Source: Chloromonas sp. AAM2 (Eukaryota; Chlorophyta; Chlorophyceae; Chlamydomonadales; Chlamydomonadaceae). From it: 41,991 nucleotides of DNA. The notes under the pieces are model-generated. The model did not search any database and was not told where the DNA came from. It saw only the letters and a program-made list of their open reading frames with translations. The stretch is from the NCBI GenBank assembly GCA_004335635.1, contig QAXH01005962.1, positions 1 to 41,991 of the forward strand, read 5' to 3'. Shown here one piece after another: positions 9,474-37,100 of this stretch (position 1 is the stretch's first letter; each line of letters opens with the position of its first letter). Both the position numbers and the translations under genes were made by a program.

Positions 9474-9790
9474 TTACGACGTTGTTGCAAGGTCAGAGCT
9501 ACAGCTCAAGCCCTACAAGACGACACGTGGGCGTTCGGAGCCCCGTTACAATCGTTGAGCCAGCAGCGACCCACTCTCAGCCAGCTCATCTCAGCAAGCA
9601 AGTCAAAGTGCTGCCGCGTGTATTTGTCTTATAGAAGAATTAAAGGGTTAAGGTTAGGCGGCGTCGTTACCAAGCCGCTGATGTCATATGGTACTCCAAG
9701 CCAGGATCCATGATTGGGACTTTTTCTTTCGGATTGTTCTAGGGACAGCGATTCACTCTGCATTTGGATGTGCGCAGAAATGCATCCTTC

Positions 9791-16904: not shown

Positions 16905-19900
16905 ATGGCAGAGAAGATTAGAGTGATCGTTGTGGATGCCAAGGGGAACATCATTACAGTTGAGCCAGAGACCTTCAAGCCTGAGCCACCGAAGACCTGT
17001 GAAGCAATTGTCCAGGAGCTCCAGGCTGCAAAGTACGGCGATGGGCTCCTAAAGGATCAGGACGGTGACACCGTGCTGCGGCATGAGTCAGTGCCAGCTG
17101 GGAACTACCAGTACAAGCTGACAGGTGACTGTTGCTGTGTGCTCTACCCAGCAGCTCAAATATCGCACACACTGCTACCATACCATGGGGCATCGTATGT
17201 GTGCGCGTGCATGTTTGTGTGAGGGATTTCCGGTCAAGGGTTACATGTACCAAGGGTGTGCTCACCCTGTTGCCACTCGTGTAGCACATGTTGCACCGCA
17301 AGCGGCAGTGGAAGGGTTGCATGCGGGCCACTGATATGTTGTGCGCTCGCATCGCATGGGGCTGCATGTGGGGATGTGCATGCTGGTTTTGCATAAGTTG
17401 CGTATCTTGTTGTATGGCTGCTTGTGTGTTGCTCCATGTTGGACAAGAGCACGCATGTGCCCATCCACTGCGCACGCAGCACAGGCACGGTGCTGCAGAA
17501 CAGTTATGCATGCCAGGCATACCGATATGTACACCGCCCATACGCACGGCAGACCCATGCCCGCACGAGCACAGACATAAGATTCATGCCCGGGCATGTG
17601 CCCCATGTCTCAGGCACGGCATCATGCACACGCCCTGCATGCGCCCATATCGCAACATGATATCATGCCTTGTCTGTGTTCTTAGGGTGCATGCCTGCAT
17701 GTATCTTGTTTGCATGAGGGCACGATCACAGTTTAACCCACATCACATGCATGCAGAGCACGTGTGCGTACGCATGCTGACACATGACGTTGATGAGCAA
17801 CATGCCGGCAGCACTGCCTTCTTCCTGCAAGCGATTGTGTCTGTTGCACTGCATTGGAAGGAGCGCATTTAGCCAGCGCCCTTGCTGCATTGTGGTGCCC
17901 ATGTGCAACATGCAGTGTTAGGGCTTATTCAGAACATGAACATGGCTTTGGCGCACGCCACCCTGCTCTGCCAGGCTGCTTGTGCGCATCTGTGGCCACA
18001 ATCCAATGCATGTGTTGCGCATGAGCTGACATGCCGCCAGATGCATGCAAGCACAACTTGACGCGCACAGAGGTCTTTAGTGCACGTGCATGCACATCCG
18101 ATTTGTGTTAGGGCTCGCACAGTGCTGCCTGTGCATGATTGCATGAGGCTGGTTCTGGCATTTCATGTGTGCCTTGCGCTTGGAGCTTGTATCTGGGTTG
18201 AGTTTAGCAGCCATAATGGTGACTTGCGCACTCGCACGTTGTGAGCAGCGCAATGCATGGCACTGCCATGTGTTGATGTATGGGTTGATGTATGTGCTTG
18301 CCTGCATATCTAATCCTATTGTGTGCCGCGCATGCTTTGTTTGCTGAAGGCGGGAGGTCAGCGAGCAGCGGAGGAGGCGGAGAAGGTGGGTATGACACGG
18401 GCAGGGCACAAACACACATCTGACAGCGCCTGCCTTTGCAACATCCTACCTGTATCTGACTGCACGTGGCATTCAAAAATCCTCACAAAGCGCGGCTACA
18501 CAGCGCAGTCATACACGGCCAATACACATTCAGTACATGAGTGCCACGGGCTTTAGCGCGGCAGCTCAGGCTTCTGACTTAACTTTCAGTAAGGGCATGG
18601 AGCAGTGCGCAGCTAAGCGGCATGGCCATGCATGTCCATGCGGACGAAGGCAGGGGCAAGCAGGCTGAGGCGAGTTGGTGGAGCAGGCAGGCACGGGCAT
18701 GCAGTCCGGGGCATGCTGAAGGGGCATGCAGGGGCGGGTAGACAAGGGCATGAACGCACGGGCAGACAGGGGCGTGGCAGGCTGGGTCAAACTGGCGGGG
18801 CAGGCGGGTACGGGCACATAGCCAGGGGCACGCTGGAAGGGGCATGCATGGGCGAGTAGACAGGGGCATGCACGCACGGGCAGGCAGACAGGGGCATGGC
18901 AGGCATGCAGGTGCAGACAGGCACGGGTTTGCTGTCACGTGGGAATGCTGGAACATGTGCATGCAAGTGCATGGGCAGCGTAGCACAGGCAACTGTCCTG
19001 GTAGTATGCATGGAACGTGTTGCATATATGTTTGTGCTAGCACGGCATTAGATAGTTAAGGAAGCATTGCATGGGACGCAGCCAGGAGTCTCTTCCTGTA
19101 TCACAAGAATGTACATGTCCATACAAGGACTGCACATGAAGTATGCATCCACAGCCTTGAAAATCCATGTGTGTTGTATAGCAGGGCATGCGGCCTGTTT
19201 TTGTGGGAGCGTGCCGAAACCCCATACCGTTCTTGTGCCCATTCACTTATCTGTCCCAGCTGCCAATGTAAGGGACTGTTGACACTCCCACTTCACCATG
19301 TGCATGATGTCCTCTGCAGCGAGGCGCACGTATGCAATCATAGGCCTACAGAAGAAGCTGAAGGACTTCACGGCCTCAAGCATCATCACCTTCGACGAAC
19401 TCTCGGGGCACATCAAGCGGCTGTGGCCCTTCTACCAGAATGTGGAGTTTGATGTGTATACAGAGGATGCCGTACAAGCCTCCAACAGGAAGAGGAGCGC
19501 TGGCCGCAAGCCATTGGATGGCAATCAGTTGAACCAGGTCTGGGAGTAGCCATTCTCTACACCTTAGCTTTCGTTCTCTACACTTTAGCTTTCGCTCTCT
19601 AGCCTCAGCTGGGTTGCCAGTATAGATTGCTGTCAATGACAACATCAGCGATGGCAAGGCTTACATGTGATTGCCATGTTCCCGTGCACATTCTGCAGGT
19701 GTGAGACTCTGGCAGGGACCAGAAGGTGTGACCGACTGCAATCAGAGCTGTGCTACGGCTGCTGCTGCTGTGCATGCGTGCAGGATAGATGGCTGCAACA
19801 TCTGATCAGTCTGGTGGCAAGTGCAGAGGTCCGTGTGGTTGTCAAAGCCAAGGGCAAGCCTTTTTCGGAGTACAATGGAATGAGTGACGACCTACTGCGG

Positions 19901-22900
19901 TGAGCTTCTAGGACCTGAGCAATTTGCATCTAGAAATGTGCTTACGGACTGCACCATTACAGTATAAGAAGTATGTACTGATGGGACTGAGGGGACTGCA
20001 GGCCCTTGTACATATACTGCGGTGACTAAACAGACATAAGATGTCTTCCTATTGTTCCCTACACTGGTTGTGCATGCAGCTTTCGTTGGTGCAGCTTTTG
20101 TCCAAGGGCAGCAGCGCTGTTTAGTCATAAGACTACTCGCTATCAAACTTGAGCTCCAGACTGAATGACTTGAAAAACTGTCATAAGAGACTCTTGACTG
20201 CCGCTTTCGAATTTACATTCACGACAGTCGTTGAACTGACAGTCGTTGACAGTCGTTGAACTGACTGTGACTGCAAGGGGAATGTCATGGATTTGCTGGT
20301 GATTGTTACTAGATTGCAACAATCACAACACGGTGTCACAGGGCGATTCTGTTCTGATTGGGTGCTACTCCTGGCAAAAACTGTTTCGCATGGTTGCACT
20401 GTTTCACTGTTTCAGGAAGCTGGTGTACGATCACACTAAGCTGACCCTTGAGTCGGGTAAGCCACTCCTGGACGATGCTGAGTTCGAGCCACCCCCAGAC
20501 TTTGCCCACGGCGATCAGCTGCTGCATTGGGGCGTGACACCACCGCTTCGGCCTGATGCGCTGGCAGCACAGCACAGCACAGCTGTAGGGGCCACCAGCA
20601 CCCAGCATGCCAACTGCCCAGTCTGCTGCACCACGTTCGAGACGGCTGCACCAGGGCAGGACGCACAGGCAGCAGGCAGCAGCATTGGTGGGGCACCTCC
20701 CCCTTTGCACAGCCGGCAGCAGGTGCCCCAACGCGGTGCACAACAGCCAGTCAAGTTCAAGCATCTGATCACAATTCTGGCTCATGCGATGATCTGCTTG
20801 GTGCAGTCACTTGCCTCTGATCGTCCTTTTGAGAAAGTCGTGCACAGGTACGCCGGGCTGCCAAACTGCTTGTTGAGATGCATCTGCCAGCGGCAGCTGG
20901 CGCTGATGCAGAGGGATTAAAAGGCTCTCTGGGAATTTTCAAAGGAATGACGCAAAAGACAGCGACAACCCCAAGATGTTTGACGAATAACCCATTGGAG
21001 ACTTTCATAGAACAGGCGCCTGTTCTTCCAGATGGTACCCGTCACGGATGACGATGGCGAGCAGATCGGCGAAGAGCTGGGCAAGGCGACCAGGTCCAGC
21101 CGTCTGGTGAGCCTGGCGCGCTGCAAGGCGTGTGTGGTCGCGTATGACGATTGTGGCAACCCCTTGCGGCAGCAAGTGGTGCGGGAACAGAAGGATCACG
21201 GCAATTGTCTGCTCTGCACCAAGTACCTGAAGGACATGAAGAAGCGCGCCGATCGTCTGTGTGACAAGTGCCGTGCTGACGGTGCGTTGGAGCTGGAGAC
21301 GCCGATCCGCGACCAGAAGGTGATGCAGACCCTGCTGGAGAAGCCGGTGATTGAGTGCACCGGGTACCATGTGGAGGTCGAGCGGCCCGAGTTCTGGATT
21401 GAGGGCCGTCGCGTTGACTACAAGGTGAACGCTTACAAGAAGCGCTCCGATGGCTCCCGACCGTCCATGCCGACACACATAATGTATCTTGAGCTGGACC
21501 GCGAGCACAACGACATGGCTGACCGTCCCCGGACTCGCACGATCTGCAACTACATGTACGGATTGTGGCGGGAGCACCATGGCAAGCCTACCCATGTCTG
21601 GCAAGCGCTGTTCCGTTACAACCAGAGCGGCCAGTACACGGATTCCCGTGGCGTCGTGTACAAGAAAACCCCGACCCACATCCGCCACCTGGTGCTGCGT
21701 GAGTGGTTCGTCGGGTGGCTGCGTCACACCGAGTGCGCCGGCCCCACCGCGACAAGTGTGAACGGCTATCCTCGTGTCTTCGCGTTGTATCTCTTCTATC
21801 GAAATGTGCGTCTGTGCGTGGAGAACACCGCGCGTGCCTATGGCCCTCCGCAGCTGCCCAGTGGCCACCTGGTGGACTGGAACGGCATGGGCCCGTTCTG
21901 GCGCAAGTCCGCCGAGAGCGTCGATCCCTGCCTGCCGCTGCGTGAGAAGGTGGCTCTCCCGTCCTGGGCTGGCATCGTCCAGGTGAACGATGAGGAGGGC
22001 GGCGAGGCGGCGCAGCCATCGCGATCGCGACTTGGTACACGGTGCTATGTCGGGAGGGCTCGTCGGACCATTTAGTTCTCAGAGTTCTCATGAGAGTTCT
22101 CAAGGTTCTCATGAGTAACACAGTGTAACACACCAAGTGGTTATAGAGTCGATTTCCCCAAGCGTGTCTTGGTGGGCGACTCGGAATGGCTATATGGTCT
22201 TGTCGGCTGCTTCTCAGGCCATGAGGCATAGTCCAAAACATCAGTAGTTCTCTTCAGTTCCCACCATGAGAACTGGGGGGGGCAAAAAGTTGTTATATCT
22301 CTGGGCCCCGCCACATTTTCATTAAAACCAAGCAATGTCACAGTGCAGGCTGCTCATACGGCCTCATATGTCGCTTGAATCGGCGCAGAGACTCAGTGCG
22401 GGCAATGTTATTCAAGAAAAACTATTTTATCGCAAGTGAGCCTGCAGGAATTCAGCAGCTGCTCGCCTGGGCTGCCTGGCCTATGATTCAGGAGGTTAGA
22501 CCGTTCCAAGAGCTCTATGCTTCATGTGTACGCAGGGGCTTCATTGATCTTGTGCTGTCTGGTGCCTTGATGTTGGCCAAGTCCCTTAAGCCCAGGAGCA
22601 GCGGACAACGCCCCTACATGAAAGCGGAGCATGCATTGGCGGGTCCCATGGCATGGGGCAAGGTCGACTACCTGCTGGTGTACCGTGCCCTTGGCATCAT
22701 GGTCGTCGAGGTAAGGTTACTAAGGTGGCAAGCGTGCTGTTGCTCTGTGCCTGCATGAGCTTGCAGCTTTTTGCCTCAGCCTTGCATGGTGCTGTGGGGC
22801 TGATCAGTGCTTGGTTGCACATCTTAGCTTTTAGCACTCCCCTTAGGTCATGTATTGATGGCGTACTGCCTCCCTGGCACACAATCATGATGCAGGCCAA

Positions 22901-23809
22901 AGCCGGAAACATTGACGACGCATGGGGGCAAGCGTTCATGGAGCTTATTGCCATGCATCATGTCTTGGTGCACCAGCTGAGGAGCTTGAGCTCGGGCAGC
23001 GACAAGAAGCGCACCGCATGCGAGGTATGTCCTGGATCGCTGGTGGCAGGATGGACTGCAGCAGTTGGTTGGATGACCATGCAGAGATGTGTGGTCAATG
23101 CAGCATTGTACTGTGGTTTCAGCGGTATCTGGGGCTGGATGTTGTAGTCAACACAGTCAGCTGCTTCATGATGGTCATGTCACTGTTCACAGTTTCCCTG
23201 GGTGCTTGCTGCAGGCTTTTCTCACAGAAGAGCTCAAGATCTACATGCTCATCTGCAACGCCAACAGCTACCGTCTGGTTTTGTATAAGCCGCAGACTGG
23301 CCTGTGGTGGTCCGCCGTCAGTGAGTTGTCCTTCAGTGCACGGACCTCTGTGGAGCAGCTGGCGCCTGGTCTGGAATATTTAATCAGAACGCTGGCATAT
23401 GCTCTGACTTGCCAAATGGATTGGCTGGACAAGGGGCTGGACAAGTTTGCTGAACTGGCCATCCCTCCACCAGAAGTCTCAGGTGGGCACGCGTGCTCTG
23501 GTGTGGCCACCTGCTGGGAGAACATCCTGTCCGAACCTTAGATAGTCTGTTCACATTCTTTTCCTGTAGCTATTGTGGGAAACTCTCAGGATGGGAGCGC
23601 AATCCTTGGGTGCCAGATGGTTGCCTCACAAGGTTGTCGCAAGCACTGGTTCACCCTGCAGTACACAGGCAGTTGTGTGCTCCCGCCATGCAGGTGAGGA
23701 CGTGGAGAATGCCACAAAGGACTACACGCAGGATATGGCACAGCAGCAGGCGCAACAGGAAGACGAACTGGATGCAGACACCGCAGCGCAGAGACTAGAG
23801 GGGCTCTAG
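16905..23809 (+). CDS. Crinkler-like protein: ubiquitin-like header plus C-terminal PD-(D/E)XK nuclease domain (8-9 exons, about 621 aa)
   Basis: Exons: 16905-17124, optional 36-bp 18350-18385, 19320-19537, 19784-19899, 20416-20847, 22344-22710, 22896-23024, 23215-23482, 23694-23809. The first exon (73 aa) reads like a ubiquitin-type header ending PAGNYQYKLTG, similar in position and shape to headers of Crinkler (CRN/CR) proteins. The middle has an acidic, Ala-rich linker and a CPVC pair. The C-terminal part carries the nuclease-fold signature: Asp in GKVDYLLV (codon 22666-22668), then VVE at the end of one exon and AK at the start of the next, followed by a Gln in GQAFMEL. Such domains act on DNA in Crinkler-type systems; activity here is inferred. 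Phases agree throughout except at the 22344 junction, where two acceptors (after 22343 or 22348) give different frames. The downstream nuclease frame needs the first; the second leads to a stop. A tail rich in Gln/Glu follows. Family assignment is by architecture and motif only. Confidence 0.6.
18684..18910. repeat. Two-copy 117-bp tandem repeat, GGGGCATGC-rich
   Basis: A unit beginning CAGGCAGGCACGGGC at 18684 is repeated from 18801 with about 85-90% similarity, inside the long first introns of the Crinkler-like gene. Each unit is made of smaller GGGGCA words. Confidence 0.75.
20225..20275. repeat. GACAGTCGTTGAACT short tandem repeat
   Basis: Three closely spaced copies of CAGTCGTTGA in the intron before exon 20416-20847. 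Confidence 0.75.
21032..22075 (+). CDS. Intron-nested ORF: zinc-finger-like plus giant-virus-type nuclease-fold protein (347 aa)
   Basis: An intact, intronless reading frame lies wholly inside the intron 20848-22343 of the Crinkler-like gene, on the same strand. Residues 31-80 carry three CxxC pairs (31/34, 59/62, 77/80), likely zinc-binding. Residues 118-202 then run RPEFWIEGRRVDYKV, HIMYLELDREHND, and ALFRYNQSGQY. This order (RxD, a strand with E-x-D-x-x-H, an Arg-containing helix, then RYN) resembles the restriction-endonuclease-fold proteins common in giant viruses and viral-like elements, which read RPD / IEIDExQH / RFNPD. Asp129, Glu154 and Asp156 are candidate metal ligands. Its third codon positions are mostly G or C, unlike the flanking exons. 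The ATG directly follows TTCTTCCAG, so it could be an exon start. It may be a captured viral or homing-type gene. Function is inferred from motifs only. Confidence 0.6.
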   Translation: MVPVTDDDGEQIGEELGKATRSSRLVSLARCKACVVAYDDCGNPLRQQVVREQKDHGNCLLCTKYLKDMKKRADRLCDKCRADGALELETPIRDQKVMQTLLEKPVIECTGYHVEVERPEFWIEGRRVDYKVNAYKKRSDGSRPSMPTHIMYLELDREHNDMADRPRTRTICNYMYGLWREHHGKPTHVWQALFRYNQSGQYTDSRGVVYKKTPTHIRHLVLREWFVGWLRHTECAGPTATSVNGYPRVFALYLFYRNVRLCVENTARAYGPPQLPSGHLVDWNGMGPFWRKSAESVDPCLPLREKVALPSWAGIVQVNDEEGGEAAQPSRSRLGTRCYVGRARRTI

Positions 23810-28213: not shown

Positions 28214-31200
28214 ATGTTGCACCCCACTCGTGGCGCTCCTGCCCTGCGCCAGCAGCAGACGTCATCGTCCATAGCTGCACCCAGCCACTTCATGCTTTAC
28301 CCAGCTCGTTCGGCTGTTGTGGTAAATGTCGCAGCCCCTGAGGCGCCCACATCCGCACCCGCATCCGCACCAGCGTCCGTGGCGGTAAGTCTTCTGAATC
28401 TGTTGGCATCAAAACATGTGCAGTTTGATGCTTACACTGGGCCTGGATGTCGCGACGCTTCGCGGGGGCGACTCGTGCTTGCGTTAGATGATGTGCTGCA
28501 CACAGGCCCATTAATGAGGCAGACAGCAAGGTGATGCAGAATAGCGACCTCTTCGCGCAGGTCAACGGCCTCAAGTACCTGCCCCAGGACGCACAGGAAA
28601 GGGCCAAGAAATCCAAGGTACGGGTCAGTCACGTGCGCGCGGCTGAGTGCGGACAGGTTTTTAAGCAACGCGCTCAAGAACCGTGCATCACTTGATCACC
28701 AGTTCAAATGAACATGCTCCTTTCTCTTGCAATGGTACCTGAGCTTCTTAGTTGAGATGGGCGGGCAGGTTGCACAATGGATGCAGTTTGAAGGCTACAA
28801 AAACGTGTGCATTGGCTGTGCGTGCAGGTCAAGCAAGAAAAGGTCAAGGTTGAGAAGTGTGGTTCCAACATGTGGACAGAGGTTCCTGAGCTGGCCAAGC
28901 TGATTCGCGAAGGAAAGACCAAGTGAGCCAAACAGGGTGTTCCAGGTGCTGGGCAGACCCATTGCAAGAAGCAAGCTCGAGTATTCACACACATACAGGA
29001 CACAATCAAACACACACGCAAGACAGAGTCAAACACATCGGGCCTGGACGTGTCATGTATACTTGGCTGACTGACTTCCTGAGGTGCAGTCATCACCTCA
29101 TGGGTGCCATGCTTTTACGTCACGCGACAAAATGGCCTGTTTGCGTGCTGTGCTCTCTTGCTCTGTTTACTTGCCCCTGTTGCATCCTATAGCGTAAGAA
29201 AGCACGCACGCACATGCCTGCTTGGCTGACATGACACCTGTGTCCTTATCACATGCTGAAACCACATCAAAGTCCGCACAAACTGATGAAGTTATTTGAG
29301 TATTGGAATAATGCAGGTGGGAGGACCTTGATTTGGATGATGTCGACATTCGCATGAAGTGGGCCGGTCTGTTTCACCGTGCCAAGCGCACACCAAAGAA
29401 GTTCATGATGCGTCTGCGTGTGCCATCTGGAGAGCTAAACGCTGCCCAGCTTCGTTTCCTTGCCTCTTCCATCCGCCCATATGGCGAGGATGGGTGCGCA
29501 GACATCACCACACGCGCCAACATTCAGTTGCGTGGCATTCCCCTTGAGCACGCTGACCAAATCATCGATGGCGTTTTTCATCACGGCCTGACTAGCTTCA
29601 TGAGTGGAATGGATAACGTGCGCAACCTGACTGGCAGCCCAATCGCTGGAGTGGATCCCCATGAGATTATCGACACAAGGCCCATCCTGGCGGTGAGTAC
29701 ACACAATAAAAAACAGAAAAGAACTGACAAACTCTAATAAGTGGTATGTCGGTATCCCTTTCGTACCTCATCTTGTAGGAGATCTGCTAGAAAGAACGGG
29801 CTGTCCCCATGCGCCAACAAACGCCCACAATGGAAACAATGAATCTAATGCTTCCTCTTGTTGTGCGTCCCTGTCTTTGCAGGAGATGCAGAAGATGATT
29901 GTTGGCCCGGATGGCCGTGGCAATGCCGCGCTGACCAACCTGCCACGCAAGATCAACATCTGCATCTCGCCCACACGCGATGACTTCCCACACACACAAA
30001 TCAATGATGTGGGCTTTGAGGCTGTCACCGACCCAGCCACCGGCAAGGTAATACTACTGTGAGAGATGATTTCAACAATAATAACGATGTTGGCTTTAAG
30101 GCTGTCGCAACACAGCCATTGGCAATGTGGGCAGGGGAAGGGGCTCGGCTAAGACATAAACGTAAGAAAAGAAAACCAAAAAAAGACATTCATGAGTATG
30201 GCTTGCTGTGCATGTGCAGGTGGTGTTCAATCTCCAGGTCGGCGGTTACTTCAGCATCAAGCGCAACATCATGTCCGTTCCTGCGCCCTTCAGCGTGACG
30301 CAGGAGCAGATCATTCCCTTCAGCAAGGCCTTGCTGGAGGTGTTCAGGTGAGGCATGGATATCTAAAATACAAATGCCAAAAATAATTGCAATATCAGCA
30401 TCCATGATTGGTGTTGTATTGAAGAATTTCCATCAATTTGATGGAGAAATGCCATTCCAACTACTTCTTGCAACCATCATATTATTTCGTGTGTCTGTGT
30501 TCAAGGGACCACGGCCCACGTGAGGACCGTCAGAAGACGCGTATGATGTGGCTGGTGGAGCAGGTTGGCATGGACAAGTGGCAGGCGCTGCTCGAGCAGT
30601 ATCTGGGAGAGAAACTGCAGCCAGCCGTTAAGGTGAGGCAAACGCCCTTTTCCCCCTTTTCCCAGCCCTGACTTGTTATTCTCAGATTCAAATCTCGGCA
30701 CTAGGAAGCCTGCAAACCCATGTGTGTGGACTAGAAACATGGTTGTGCGCCACATGGCATGGGTCGCGTGTCGCATGGCATGGGGTTGTGGGCGTGCGAC
30801 ACATGGCATGGGGTGTGCGTGCGACACATGGCATGGGGTGTGTGCGACATGGCATGGGGTGTGTGTGCGACACACGGCATGGGGGTGCGACACATCGTGT
30901 GGGTGGGCATGGGTATGCGTCACCATGTGGTGTGACCTGACACAAATGCTCTTTGGCTTTCTCTACTTCAGGTGAACCACGAAGGCCACTGGCCTCGGCG
31001 AGATGTGCTGGGCGTGCATGCCCAGAAGCAGGCAGGACTTTGCTGGGTGGGCGCATGTGTGCCGGCAGGCCGCTTGCATGCACAAGACTTTGACGACATG
31101 GCGCGCATCGCAGAGGTGAGAGCAGCCTGGTTGCTTAGTCTTGCTAGGTCTTGCTTAGTCAGCCGCGTTGCAATCGCAAAAAAAAGGCCAGACTGCGCAA

Positions 31201-32902
31201 CTAGGGTTCATGTTATAGGGCCAAAATTGCAGCGAACTCCAAGCGGACACTGCAGTAGTTTTGCACCCAATCTCAGCTACCTGTAGAGCCCCGGATCGCA
31301 AACAGTGCAGTGTAGCGCACAAGCGATCCTTGGAAGCAGTTCTCGGTCAGGCTTTTGACAATGTGTAAGCTTTCGTGAGATTTGAACAGTTCCGGATAGA
31401 GGACATCGAGAGCAATCAAACAAGCCTAGACTCACAGAGAATGCTGCTGGCATCGCGAAGCAAGTTTCCAAAGACTTCACATGGCCATTGGGTCACATGG
31501 AGAGAACCTGCGCTTTTGAAATCTGGTGTACAAATGTACAGAAATGTAATTTGATTTATTACAGATGTAAATGTACAAATGTACAGCATCCCAACCGCGG
31601 AAATCTACCGCATCTTGGGATGAACACTGACATGCTGTTTGCCTGCTTGTCTATCCTTTCACAGAAATACGGTGACGGCACTTTGCGTCTGACCTGCGAG
31701 GAGAACGTCGTCTTTGTCAACATCCCAGAGGCAAAGGTCGACGCCATGCTGGCAGAGCCTCTCTTCCAGAAGTTCAAGGTCAACCCAGGTAGGTCCGACG
31801 CATGGCAAGTGGGCTCCAACCGTGGCGTTTCTAGCGCAAGGGTATTGACAGCTGGTTCAAATCCGAATGGATGAACTTGCAGCAGGTACTTAGTATGTTA
31901 GCTTTCTTCTAAAAAGTAGCTCACAATCAGCAGCAGTGAATAGGTGCAATACAGTTAACAGGTGCCGCTTCACTGGCCTGTGCGCACAACCCTACATGCA
32001 CCGAGCTTGCTGCCCCATAGCGTGACTGTCAACCTGCATTCTTGTTTTCCACAGGCGCCCTGACTCGTGCCATGGTGACATGCACCGGCTCCCAGTTCTG
32101 TGGCTTTGGCCTGGCCGAGACTAAGAACAGGGCTGTGGTGATGATGGAGCGCTTGGAGAACGAACTCAACCTCAAAGCGCCGCTGCGCATCCATTTCACG
32201 GGATGCCCCAACTCGTGCGGCCAGGCACAGGTGCGCAGCCTGCATTTCATTGTTTATCATGTCATTGTGATCATTAATGTACAAATAAGAACAATGTACA
32301 ATATGGCACCCAGCTGGCAGTGCGGCACTGCAGCATCTCAAAGACTGAGCACATGAATAATCTCATTTGCTTGAATCTGTTGCGCCTTCCCTGTCATCCC
32401 TTGCACATGCCTTCTCTTGCTTCCCAGGTTGGCGACATCGGTCTGATGGGTGCACCTGCCAAGAAGAATGGCAAGGCCACTGAAGGCTTCAAGATCATGT
32501 TGGGAGGCAGGGTTGGAGAGAATCCTGCGCTGGCAACAGACTTTGCACCGGTGAGTAGAGGCTAGGAACGCTACTTTTCACATCCAGGTGCGTGGTGACT
32601 TCTTGAACGGCATGTGAATGGGTTGCAATGGTGACTGTTCAAACCAGTTCAACTGAAAGGTCCAGTACTGTGAGACCTCGTGTGCTCTTGGTTTGAATGT
32701 CAGGAAGTCCTGGGTGCGCTCGCATCATTCTTAGACCATATGCGCTCGTTTGACTTGTTGCCCGTTGCAGGGTGTACCCGTGGAGGATCTGCACGACAAA
32801 CTGAAGGAGATTCTGATCGAACAGTTTGGAGCCACACCCAAAACAGAGAAGGAGATGCTGTTGACCCCCGTCACCAACTACTTCAAGATTAGCACAGCGT
32901 GA
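28214..32902 (+). CDS. NII1: Ferredoxin-nitrite reductase, copy A (12 exons, 605 aa)
   Basis: Chloroplast enzyme that reduces nitrite to ammonium with six electrons from ferredoxin, using siroheme and a [4Fe-4S] cluster; second step of nitrate assimilation. Exons: 28214-28384, 28561-28617, 28828-28922, 29317-29692, 29883-30047, 30220-30347, 30506-30632, 30972-31115, 31665-31788, 32055-32230, 32428-32550, 32771-32902 (1818 nt). Exon 1 is a Ser/Ala/Gln-rich transit peptide (MLHPTRGAPALRQQQTSSS). Family blocks include RMKWAGLFHR, DITTRANIQLRG, MDNVRNLTGSPIAGVDP, LGVHAQKQAGLCWVGA and the cluster ligands C472/C478 (CTGSQFC) and C513/C517 (TGCPNSC). Length is normal for the family. The acceptor of exon 2 was chosen by comparison with copy B. 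The neighbouring copy B has the same exon phases. The gene appears intact. Confidence 0.95.
30084..30130 (+). repeat. Decayed copy of the end of exon 5, in intron 5 of nitrite reductase A
   Basis: GATGTTGGCTTTAAGGCTGTC and following bases repeat the last 45 bases of exon 5 (GATGTGGGCTTTGAGGCTGTC) with changes. An equivalent copy lies in intron 5 of gene B at 36262-36315. Confidence 0.85.
30735..30930. repeat. GCGACACATGGCATGGGGTGT minisatellite in intron 7 of copy A
   Basis: About six imperfect units of 20-30 bp with the words ACATGGCATGGGG and TGTGCG. Absent from the same intron of copy B, which instead has a CA repeat. Confidence 0.85.
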
Positions 32903-34110: not shown

Positions 34111-37100
34111 ATGCTGCACCCCTCTCGTGGCGTTGCTGCCCTGCGCCAGCAGCAGACTTCATCATTTACAGCTGCGCCCAGCCACCTCACAATCTACCCA
34201 ACCCGTTCGGCTGTTGTTGTGAATGTTGTAGCCCCACCCGAAACGGCCGTCAAGGTGCGTCCTATGCATATGATGGTCTTATGCGTGCGATGGCATGCGC
34301 ATCATGCCGCTTGATGCCTGTACCGGGTTTACTCATGGAATCTTCGACGGGTTTACTCATGCTTGCTCTAGATGGTATTGGTCCATTTATAAGGCAGTCA
34401 GCAAGAAGATGCAGACGTTTTGCGATTTCTTATCGCGCAGACCAGCGGGCTAGAGCACCTGAGCAAGGAAGCACAGGAAAGGGCCACAAAATCCAAGGTA
34501 CGAACCAGTCACGTGCTTGCTTGCGTTTGAACTGCACGTGCTCATTGGCCCATCTGCAGACCCTACAGTTCGTGCTGCCCTTTCCTGTCTGATGATCTTG
34601 GGCTGGCTACTTCGCTAGTACAGGATGCACAACACATGGCGACGGTATGCTCAGGCATCATTCTGTACATGTGCTGTGCAGGCCAAGTATGAGAAGGTCA
34701 AGGTTGAGAAGTGTGGTTCCACCACGTGGACTGAGACTCCTGAGCTGGCCAAGTTGATTCGCGAAGGAAAGACCAAGTGAGCCAAACGCGCACCCAACGC
34801 ACAATCAAACACACACCTAACACACAAAGCAGTGACTCGCTTGTTGGCCTGCTGCTCTCAATCCCATGTCACCTTACACACACGCAAGACACAAACACTG
34901 GTGGTGGCTGCTGCGCATGAACTGCTCTCACAAACATGAATATATCATTTGCTGATCGCCAGCCGTGCTTGCTTTTGACCGGGCAACAAGTCACTTGCAG
35001 AGGGCTCAAATAAGCTGAAGTTTGACAGAGCCTAGATGTGTCATTACACTTTCTGCAGGTGGGAGGACCTCAATCTGGACGATGTTGACATTCGCATGAA
35101 GTGGGCCGGTCTGTTTCACCGCGCCAAGCGCACACCTAACAAGTTTATGCTGCGCATTCGCGTGCCGGCGCACGAGCTCAACGCTGCCCAGCTGCGCTTC
35201 TTCAGCTCTGTCATTCGCCCGTACGGCGAGGCTGGGTGCGCAGACATCACCACAAGGGGCGCTTTTCAGCTGCGCGGCATCTCTCTCGATCGCGTGGACG
35301 AGATCATCGACGGCCTGCAACGGCATGGCCTGACCAGCTTTCAGACCGGTATGGACAACGTGCGCAACCTTTCAAGCAGCCCAATCGCTGGAGTGGATCC
35401 GCATGAGCTGATCGACACAAGGCCCATCCTGCGGGTGAGTTCGATTACCTGCAGAGAATTGTTTGAAAACATTTCAAAACTCCAACGTTGTTTCTGGCTG
35501 TGAGTACAAGTAAACTGATAGAGACGTAACAAAGGTGCAACACACAAGCACTGTAGTGTTTCAGGGGCACGAACACTGGTCAGAGACACATGCTTGGTTT
35601 GATACGCACTGTTTTTAAACAGGATGCAGCCAGCCAACATTTTGCAACCACTTTGGATCAATTGCTCGGTATTCGACAACAGCCTGACAGAGCGATGCTA
35701 AGCGCCTATGTCACTCACGTTGTGCTTCACAGCTGTACTTGTGGCCTTTGCACCTGATGTTGCACACTTGATGCTTGCTTTTCTCCGTCCCATTGTCTGT
35801 CATGTTCCTTTTAGCTGCGTGTTTGGCATGGCAGTGTGGCGATCTCAGTTTTTGTGGTGTTTTCAGCAATTTCAGATCGTTTCGAATCCTTCTTCAAGTC
35901 GGTATCTCTTTCGTACCTCATCTTGTAGGAGATCTGCTGAAAGAACGGGCTGTCCCCATGCGCCAACAAAATGCCCACAATGGAAACAATGAATCTAATG
36001 CTTCCCTTGTTGTGCGCCCGTGTCTTTGCAGGAGATGCAGAAGATGATTGTTGGCCCGGATGGCAGTGGCAATGCCGCGCTGACCAACCTGCCACGCAAG
36101 ATCAACGTCTGCATCTCACCCACACGCGATGACTTCCCACATTCAAAAATCAATGATGTGGGCTTTGAGGCTGTCACCGACCCAGCCACCGGCAAGGTGA
36201 TTTTATACCTAACGGCAATAGTAATAGACAATAGTAATGACGACAATGATAGAAAATGATATTGATGTGGGCGTTGAGGCTGGCACTAACCCAGCCACCG
36301 GCAAGTTGGGCACAGAAAGGGGCCTGGCACATGTCACATGTGGTATACTTCTGGTTGAGAGCTGGTATCTGGGAGTGCTGTCAGTAAACAGAACAGAATA
36401 TATCTAACTAAGCAGTTAATAACAATCAATGAATGGTAACAATGCAATGGCTGATTGGCTGCCTGCGTACGTCCCTGGGTCACGCAGGTTGTCTTCAACC
36501 TCCAGGTTGGCGGGTACTTCAGTCTCAAGCGCAACACCATGTCCGTTCCTGCGCCCTTCAGCGTCACTCAGGAGCAGATCATTCCCTTCACCAAAGCCCT
36601 GCTGGAGGTCTTCAGGTGAGGCAAGGATCAAGGCCCCAGCTTCAGAAGTTTACGACGGCAAGCCTGAGGTTGAGCGGCATTACAAAACCTTGCAAACGCG
36701 ACTTACTAGTATATTGATTATCGGTTTACCGAGAGCCGCCAAAGCCGCCGAAAAAAAAGATGTTTGCCAGTTCTGGGACAGTTTTGAAGAACAACACTGG
36801 AACCAGTGTGGGGCCCAGGTGCATGCTTCAGAGTGGTCACAACAGCTGAGGCCGTACGGGAAGAACTCGTCAAATGCGTGAATGAGGTGGACTCACAAGT
36901 GGAGACGGCAAGTGACAGCATCGGGTTCTGGGATACTGTGGCCTGCAGCATGCAGCTGCAGCTGCAGTTTTTTCGAAGTACATCACGCGTTGATCATGCG
37001 TGCGATGTTTGTAAGGGCATCTGCGCCCTCTGCGCTGGCCAAAGAATTGCCTGGAGTTGGATTGTAGCCAACTTCGTGATTGCGCTACTGTTGCGAGGGA

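Follow-up and report, generated by a model that had tools for sequence, protein, structure and literature searches.

Nested reading frame and host gene

The window, a stretch of 41,991 nucleotides, is a whole contig (C1859) of a 74.4 Mb genome. The longest of its 40 ATG-initiated open reading frames (ORFs) of at least 120 amino acids has 347 codons and lies, as the first-pass annotation had described, inside an intron of another gene and on the same strand, a position that also holds for the intron as re-modeled here (Table 1). The three CxxC pairs (residues 31/34, 59/62, and 77/80) and the RxD, ExDxxH, and RYN motifs reported for this ORF are all present, the latter as RVD (127–129), ELDREH (154–159), and RYN (195–197). 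Scanning six frames, we found the pattern R.D(14-26)E.D..H once in the window, inside the 347-codon ORF. The claim that its third positions are G/C-rich and unlike those of the host exons was borne out by a comparison of GC3 (0.80 in the ORF vs. 0.67 in the spliced host exons).

Table 1. Coordinates of the host gene borders, the inserted element, and its parts in the window
Feature	Coordinates	Strand	Basis
Host exon before intron	20416–20847	+	In-frame model; 54% identical to C154
Host intron as re-modeled, 1688 nt, GT-AG	20848–22535	+	Paralog-matched donor and acceptor, exons in one frame
Inserted mobile element, about 1513 nt	20925–22437	+	C154 comparison (5′), homology ends of copies (3′)
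Leader of element, apparently non-coding	20925–21031	+	GC 0.46; third-position GC 0.43–0.49 across the three reading frames, stops in two
ORF, 347 codons, ATG to stop	21032–22075	+	Translation of window ORFs
Three CxxC pairs, putative zinc-binding region (residues 31–80)	21122–21271	+	Sequence reading
Putative nuclease core RVD/ELDREH/RYN (residues 127–197)	21410–21622	+	Motif only
3′ untranslated part: AGTTCT-rich stretch, hairpin near 22260–22286, palindrome-like terminus	22076–22437	+	Four-copy alignment, consensus fold
Host exon after intron	22536–22710	+	In-frame model; 88% identical to C2295, 75% to P0006

We modeled the host gene as exons 19322–19537, 19784–19899, 20416–20847, 22536–22710, 22896–23024, 23215–23482, and 23694 onward, which join in one frame and yield 483 residues over the exons modeled. 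A paralog on contig C154 has a GT at the position of the donor (20848), and contig C2295 has an AG at that of the acceptor before 22536. Single-base gaps, as expected of an intron rather than an exon, occur in the alignment of the window with C154, some 50 nt past the donor, and in that with C2295, just before the acceptor. The intron most likely spans 20848–22535 rather than ending at 22343, as had been proposed: splicing at 22343 would also leave an open frame, yet that acceptor was rejected since it falls within a repeat whose homology runs on to 22437, and the paralog-matched acceptor before 22536 joins the exons in frame. Another candidate acceptor, at 22447, was rejected because the frame would close 16 codons later. 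C154 and C2295 break off at one and the same point of the host paralog; C154 carries the exon upstream of the intron and C2295 the exon downstream, and the two are probably a single gene split by assembly.

In a search of a protein collection with the host protein, P0006 was the only match at E ≤ 1 among 7998 candidates scored. In this protein (273 residues), 62 residues (186 nt) separate the end of the exon before the intron (exon c) from the exon after it (exon d). The description of the host as Crinkler-like was not supported, as the 483-residue model matched no Pfam family up to E 10. Across an exon junction, at window 22660–22910, the host protein has a D-x13-E-A-K arrangement (GKVDYLLVYRALGIMVVE/AKA), a type of pattern that occurs in PD-(D/E)XK nucleases.

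We performed a Pfam search on ten other ORFs of the window; six matched ordinary cellular families and four matched nothing. The matches were to a RING finger (24.9 bits, narrowly short of the 25.2 cut-off), Pex2/Pex12, HisG, and three NIR/SIR ferredoxin-like half domains. The three half-domain ORFs lie at 29354–29737, 31497–31874, and 35036–35503, two of them with closely similar beginnings, suggesting duplicated nitrite/sulfite reductase genes. A scan of the window for bacterial promoters and terminators found none, which is not informative for a eukaryote.

Searches for relatives of the ORF protein covered protein, profile, structure, and genome collections. The ORF had no match at E ≤ 0.001 among 1600 candidates from the protein collection, and the alignment of its copies (A1) had none at E ≤ 10 among 7301 candidates. 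Pfam, NCBIfam, and PHROGs returned nothing or sub-threshold matches only (lowest E 0.022, to Pyridox_oxase_2 with the C990 piece, below that profile's cut-off), the putative zinc-binding region had no profile match above cut-off, and no family match placed the ORF in an ordinary algal host family. PDB sequences gave no credible match (best E 0.069), and a tblastn search of phages returned 5 records (best E 2) and no relative. In viral contigs, a collection judged poor in giant viruses, 44 pattern stretches included no relative of the ORF, and further motif scans gave 11 and 2 stretches, none of the ORF family by eye. At least 80 stretches from prokaryote genomes were among the matches listed, with no ORF relative. 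AlphaFold on a four-row alignment gave a mean pLDDT of 35.3 and no usable fold.

The ORF motifs may resemble a giant-virus nuclease type; no relative was found in the viral contigs searched, and the label "giant-virus-like" was not supported. As for the nuclease label, the motif order is present, the pattern is unique in the window, and a copy on contig C990 conserves D129, E154, D156, and H159 (RYN is RCN there) along with CxxC pairs 2 and 3, its sequence stopping short of pair 1. Because of the motif order, the conserved residues, and the unique pattern, we lean somewhat toward reading the protein as a nuclease; on the other side, no profile match came near its cut-off and the fold prediction was unusable.

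Dispersed repeat with a shared 3′ end

The ORF is part of a dispersed repeat, with further copies or parts on contigs C990, C1333, C1538, and C1478. A DNA search of the same genome, using the intron stretch as first annotated, matched C990 (79% identity, from the contig end onward), C1333 (where a run of Ns precedes the match), and C1538; at the protein level, a search of the genome recovered the ORF from C990 and the C-terminal part of it from C1333. The C1478 copy was found by a search with the 3′ part of C1333. Copy counts from these searches are lower bounds. Two of the other copies hold ORF sequence (C990 and C1333, their upstream parts cut off by contig end or Ns), and the C1538 and C1478 copies comprise the last 250–300 nt, without the ORF.

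The 3′ ends of homology coincide at one base for window–C1538 (window 22437), C990–C1538, and C990–C1333 (C990:1378, C1333:1156), and those of C990–C1478 and C1333–C1478 agree with the same terminus. Homology between C1538 and C1478 ends one base later, that between the window and C990 runs 17 bases further, to 22454, and window–C1333 and window–C1478 homology fades 9 bases earlier, at 22428; C1333 and C1538 gave no local match in the pairwise comparison. We searched the genome with the terminus GAAAAACTAGTTTTTCAAAAGT at up to 3 mismatches and found three occurrences, each at the 3′ end of a family copy, while the reversed control found 0. The termini of the window and C1478 are too divergent to match at this setting, and the pattern has no match anywhere in the window.

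The 3′ edge of the window element is accordingly placed at 22437, or up to 22454, and its 5′ edge may lie anywhere within about 30 nt (20917 to about 20945). Since query 20740–21190 found no second genome copy of the 5′ stretch, the window is the sole source for the 5′ end. No target-site duplication was recognized by eye, given this uncertainty in the 5′ edge. A consensus fold of the four 3′ parts has 48 pairs, 14 of them with a both-sided change in some copy, and includes one hairpin common to all four copies; we take this fold as a hint only. Rfam over the intron gave 3 matches, all under gathering scores.

The terminal inverted repeats of a cut-and-paste DNA transposon were not seen: the terminus occurs only at the 3′ ends of copies, and of 129 inverted pairs in the window, none of the 25 longest links one end of the element to the other. 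On C1538, a 150-bp foldback (9519–9668; two 50-nt arms, 98% complementary) starts at the base directly after the 3′ terminus of the copy. Neither this foldback nor the 3′ flank of the C990 copy has a second copy in the genome. Pfam matched none of 20 ORFs around the C990, C1333, and C1538 copies.

Insertion site, reading-frame end, and age

Similarity between the C154 paralog and the window extends to about 20924, beyond which C154 continues without the element. When the window flanks were joined, they aligned best to C154 with breaks at 20917–20925 and 22430–22438, though the right half of this empty-site alignment is weak alone (local score 29; the best of 500 shuffles reached 28 and other window parts reach 33). 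Without the element, the window intron would measure about 175 nt, compared with 186 nt between the same exons in P0006. Because C154 lacks the element and the P0006 interval is close to what is left in the window, we think it likely that an intron of about 180 nt was already in place and grew to 1688 nt when a mobile element entered it. The suggestion of a mobile element within the intron thus agrees with the other genome copies, the C154 site, and the short interval in P0006. A two-protein system sharing one transcript, also put forward at first, is unlikely given a paralog without the insert, and a strict homing-type element fits poorly, as the four other copies sit in surroundings that showed no similarity to the host gene and the corresponding C154 site is empty.

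We compared the 17 bases after the 3′ terminus among four copies. The window and C990 agree at 12 of 17, whereas the other five pairs agree at 1–5 of 17. The window (22438–22454) and C990 (1379–1395) flanks both end in GAATTCA, which also occurs at the C154 empty site; the agreement may be target preference or chance.

Where the window reads CAG (22013–22015), C990 and C1333 have the stop TAG, after EGGEAA or EEGGE. The copies suggest that the original ORF ended at 22012 and that TAG changed to CAG in the window, and the last 20 residues of the window ORF look like read-through. The frame had been called intact; it does run from ATG to stop over 347 codons, but with this apparent extension in place of the stop of the copies. 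The C990 copy has a one-base frame change, and its ORF was found in two frames. With a probable lost stop in the window and this frame change in C990, a functional copy is demonstrated for none of them.

We then calculated substitution rates between copies. Over 271 codons, the window and C990 differ with a dS of 0.29 and a dN of 0.086 (dN/dS 0.29), a ratio that points to purifying selection on the ORF and hence to a protein that mattered while the element family spread. The ratio was 0.81 between the window and C1333 (74 C-terminal codons) and 0.60 between C990 and C1333, and the C-terminus of the protein thus appears little constrained. Host paralogs have dS values of 0.66 in exon c, 0.67 in exon d, and 0.88 in exon f. 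Because the element dS lies below these values, the element family appears to have spread later than the host duplication.

Interpretation and relation to known systems

Given a repeat family with a common 3′ terminus, a paralog site without the element, in-frame exons with paralog-matched borders, and apparent purifying selection, all established by sequence comparison, the best explanation is in our judgment a probable one: a small dispersed one-ORF element of about 1.5 kb was inserted in sense orientation in an older intron and is probably spliced out. Its ORF would most likely encode the element's own DNA-cutting mobility protein, in which a PD-(D/E)XK- or Vsr-like nuclease core, placed after a CxxC zinc-binding region, would open target DNA. 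The structured 3′ module may be the end recognized in copying, by which 3′-only copies would also arise, and the host would tolerate the insert because it leaves with the intron. Nuclease activity, mobility role, splicing, and copying mechanism are the parts of this explanation that we infer.

The main rival, though unlikely, sees in the element the 3′ portion of a longer non-LTR retrotransposon, one with a C-terminal restriction-like endonuclease and with copies 5′-truncated by target-primed reverse transcription. The fixed 3′ end, the two copies with only the last 250–300 nt, and the lack of a terminal inverted repeat among the 25 longest inverted pairs would all fit, the upstream parts of C990 and C1333 are out of view, and in retrotransposons of this kind a zinc-binding region precedes the nuclease, as proposed for the ORF. 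However, the ORF starts with an ATG of its own, an in-frame stop precedes it, the leader appears non-coding, and the window element contains no reverse transcriptase. In addition, 17 reverse-transcriptase loci (1.9–3.6 kb, with short flanks) gave no DNA match, and their protein matches were at chance level (E 0.25–0.83). It is improbable that the element broke an exon rather than an intron, leaving the window gene disrupted. Beyond the donor, C154 stays open until the contig ends, P0006 stays open over the 186 nt, and the two translations show weak similarity in this stretch (a score attained by 32 of 1000 shuffles), but single-base gaps occur against C154 some 50 nt past the donor and against C2295 just before the acceptor, and GT and AG sit where strong protein similarity stops and resumes, after which the exons join in one frame.

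A cellular spliceosomal homing intron, with a homing endonuclease gene specific for its target, would account for a nuclease-like ORF in an intron and for the shared window–C990 flank with its GAATTCA; we regard it as very improbable, since the other five flank pairs do not agree in this way, the copies are dispersed, and the intron is older than the insert. Least probable is an endogenous giant virus fragment, for which a motif resemblance is the only point: no viral relative was found in the contigs searched, the repeat has a defined end, and ordinary genes lie nearby. The earlier idea of viral capture likewise found no support, given the absence of a viral relative in the searches and the six of ten other window ORFs in ordinary cellular families.

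Among these readings, the sense insertion of a one-ORF element into an older intron is the one we carry forward. A mobile element in an intron is a familiar situation, and this family is unclassified and without detected relatives. What had appeared to be a nested pair of nuclease genes becomes an insertion whose relative age can be read from an element dS of 0.29 against 0.66–0.88 for the host duplication. Should the nuclease reading prove true, the insertion would represent a mobile family that encodes a nuclease and has no detected relatives, with relevance to the way endonuclease genes reach spliceosomal introns. It is doubtful, if conceivable, that the family represents a new kind of eukaryotic mobile element, with one Vsr/EDxHD- or PD-(D/E)XK-type nuclease ORF and no transposase or reverse transcriptase of its own, surviving in introns, with a 3′ module of about 270 nt that also spreads alone, as a cellular non-homing counterpart of mirusvirus nuclease introns.

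Of the six types of homing endonuclease, at least two, GIY-YIG and PD-(D/E)XK, occur in eukaryotic transposable elements, as stated in an excerpt of PMC5718144. Non-LTR retrotransposons with restriction-like endonuclease resemble the present family in the fixed 3′ end and 3′-only copies, whereas here the ORF is separate and has its own start, and no reverse transcriptase was found in the window element or linked to it in the 17 loci. Introners, as the excerpted text of PMC9860276 presents them, likewise place transposable DNA as intron sequence; here the splice sites are those of the host intron, not the element, and only five places are known. The element ends (about 20925–22437) do not coincide with the splice sites (intron 20848–22535), and assignment as an introner was rejected.

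In the available excerpt of the report on mirusvirus spliceosomal homing introns, or shintrons (PMC12768974), 334 intron-harbored endonuclease genes are described, 16 of them VSR-like, and endonuclease genes in spliceosomal introns are said not to have been observed before. Assignment as such an intron was also rejected: in a shintron the intron itself moves and is bound to a single target gene, whereas here the element lies inside an older intron, and other copies lie in sequence that showed no similarity to the host gene. Compared with the shintrons in that excerpt (PMC12768974), the element here is smaller than its intron, the intron is older, the copies are dispersed, and the putative nuclease lacks profile support. 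The likeness is an endonuclease-like gene in a GT-AG intron, with VSR-like and PD-(D/E)XK types present there, and on the excerpted text the mirusvirus shintron (PMC12768974) is the nearest published pattern.
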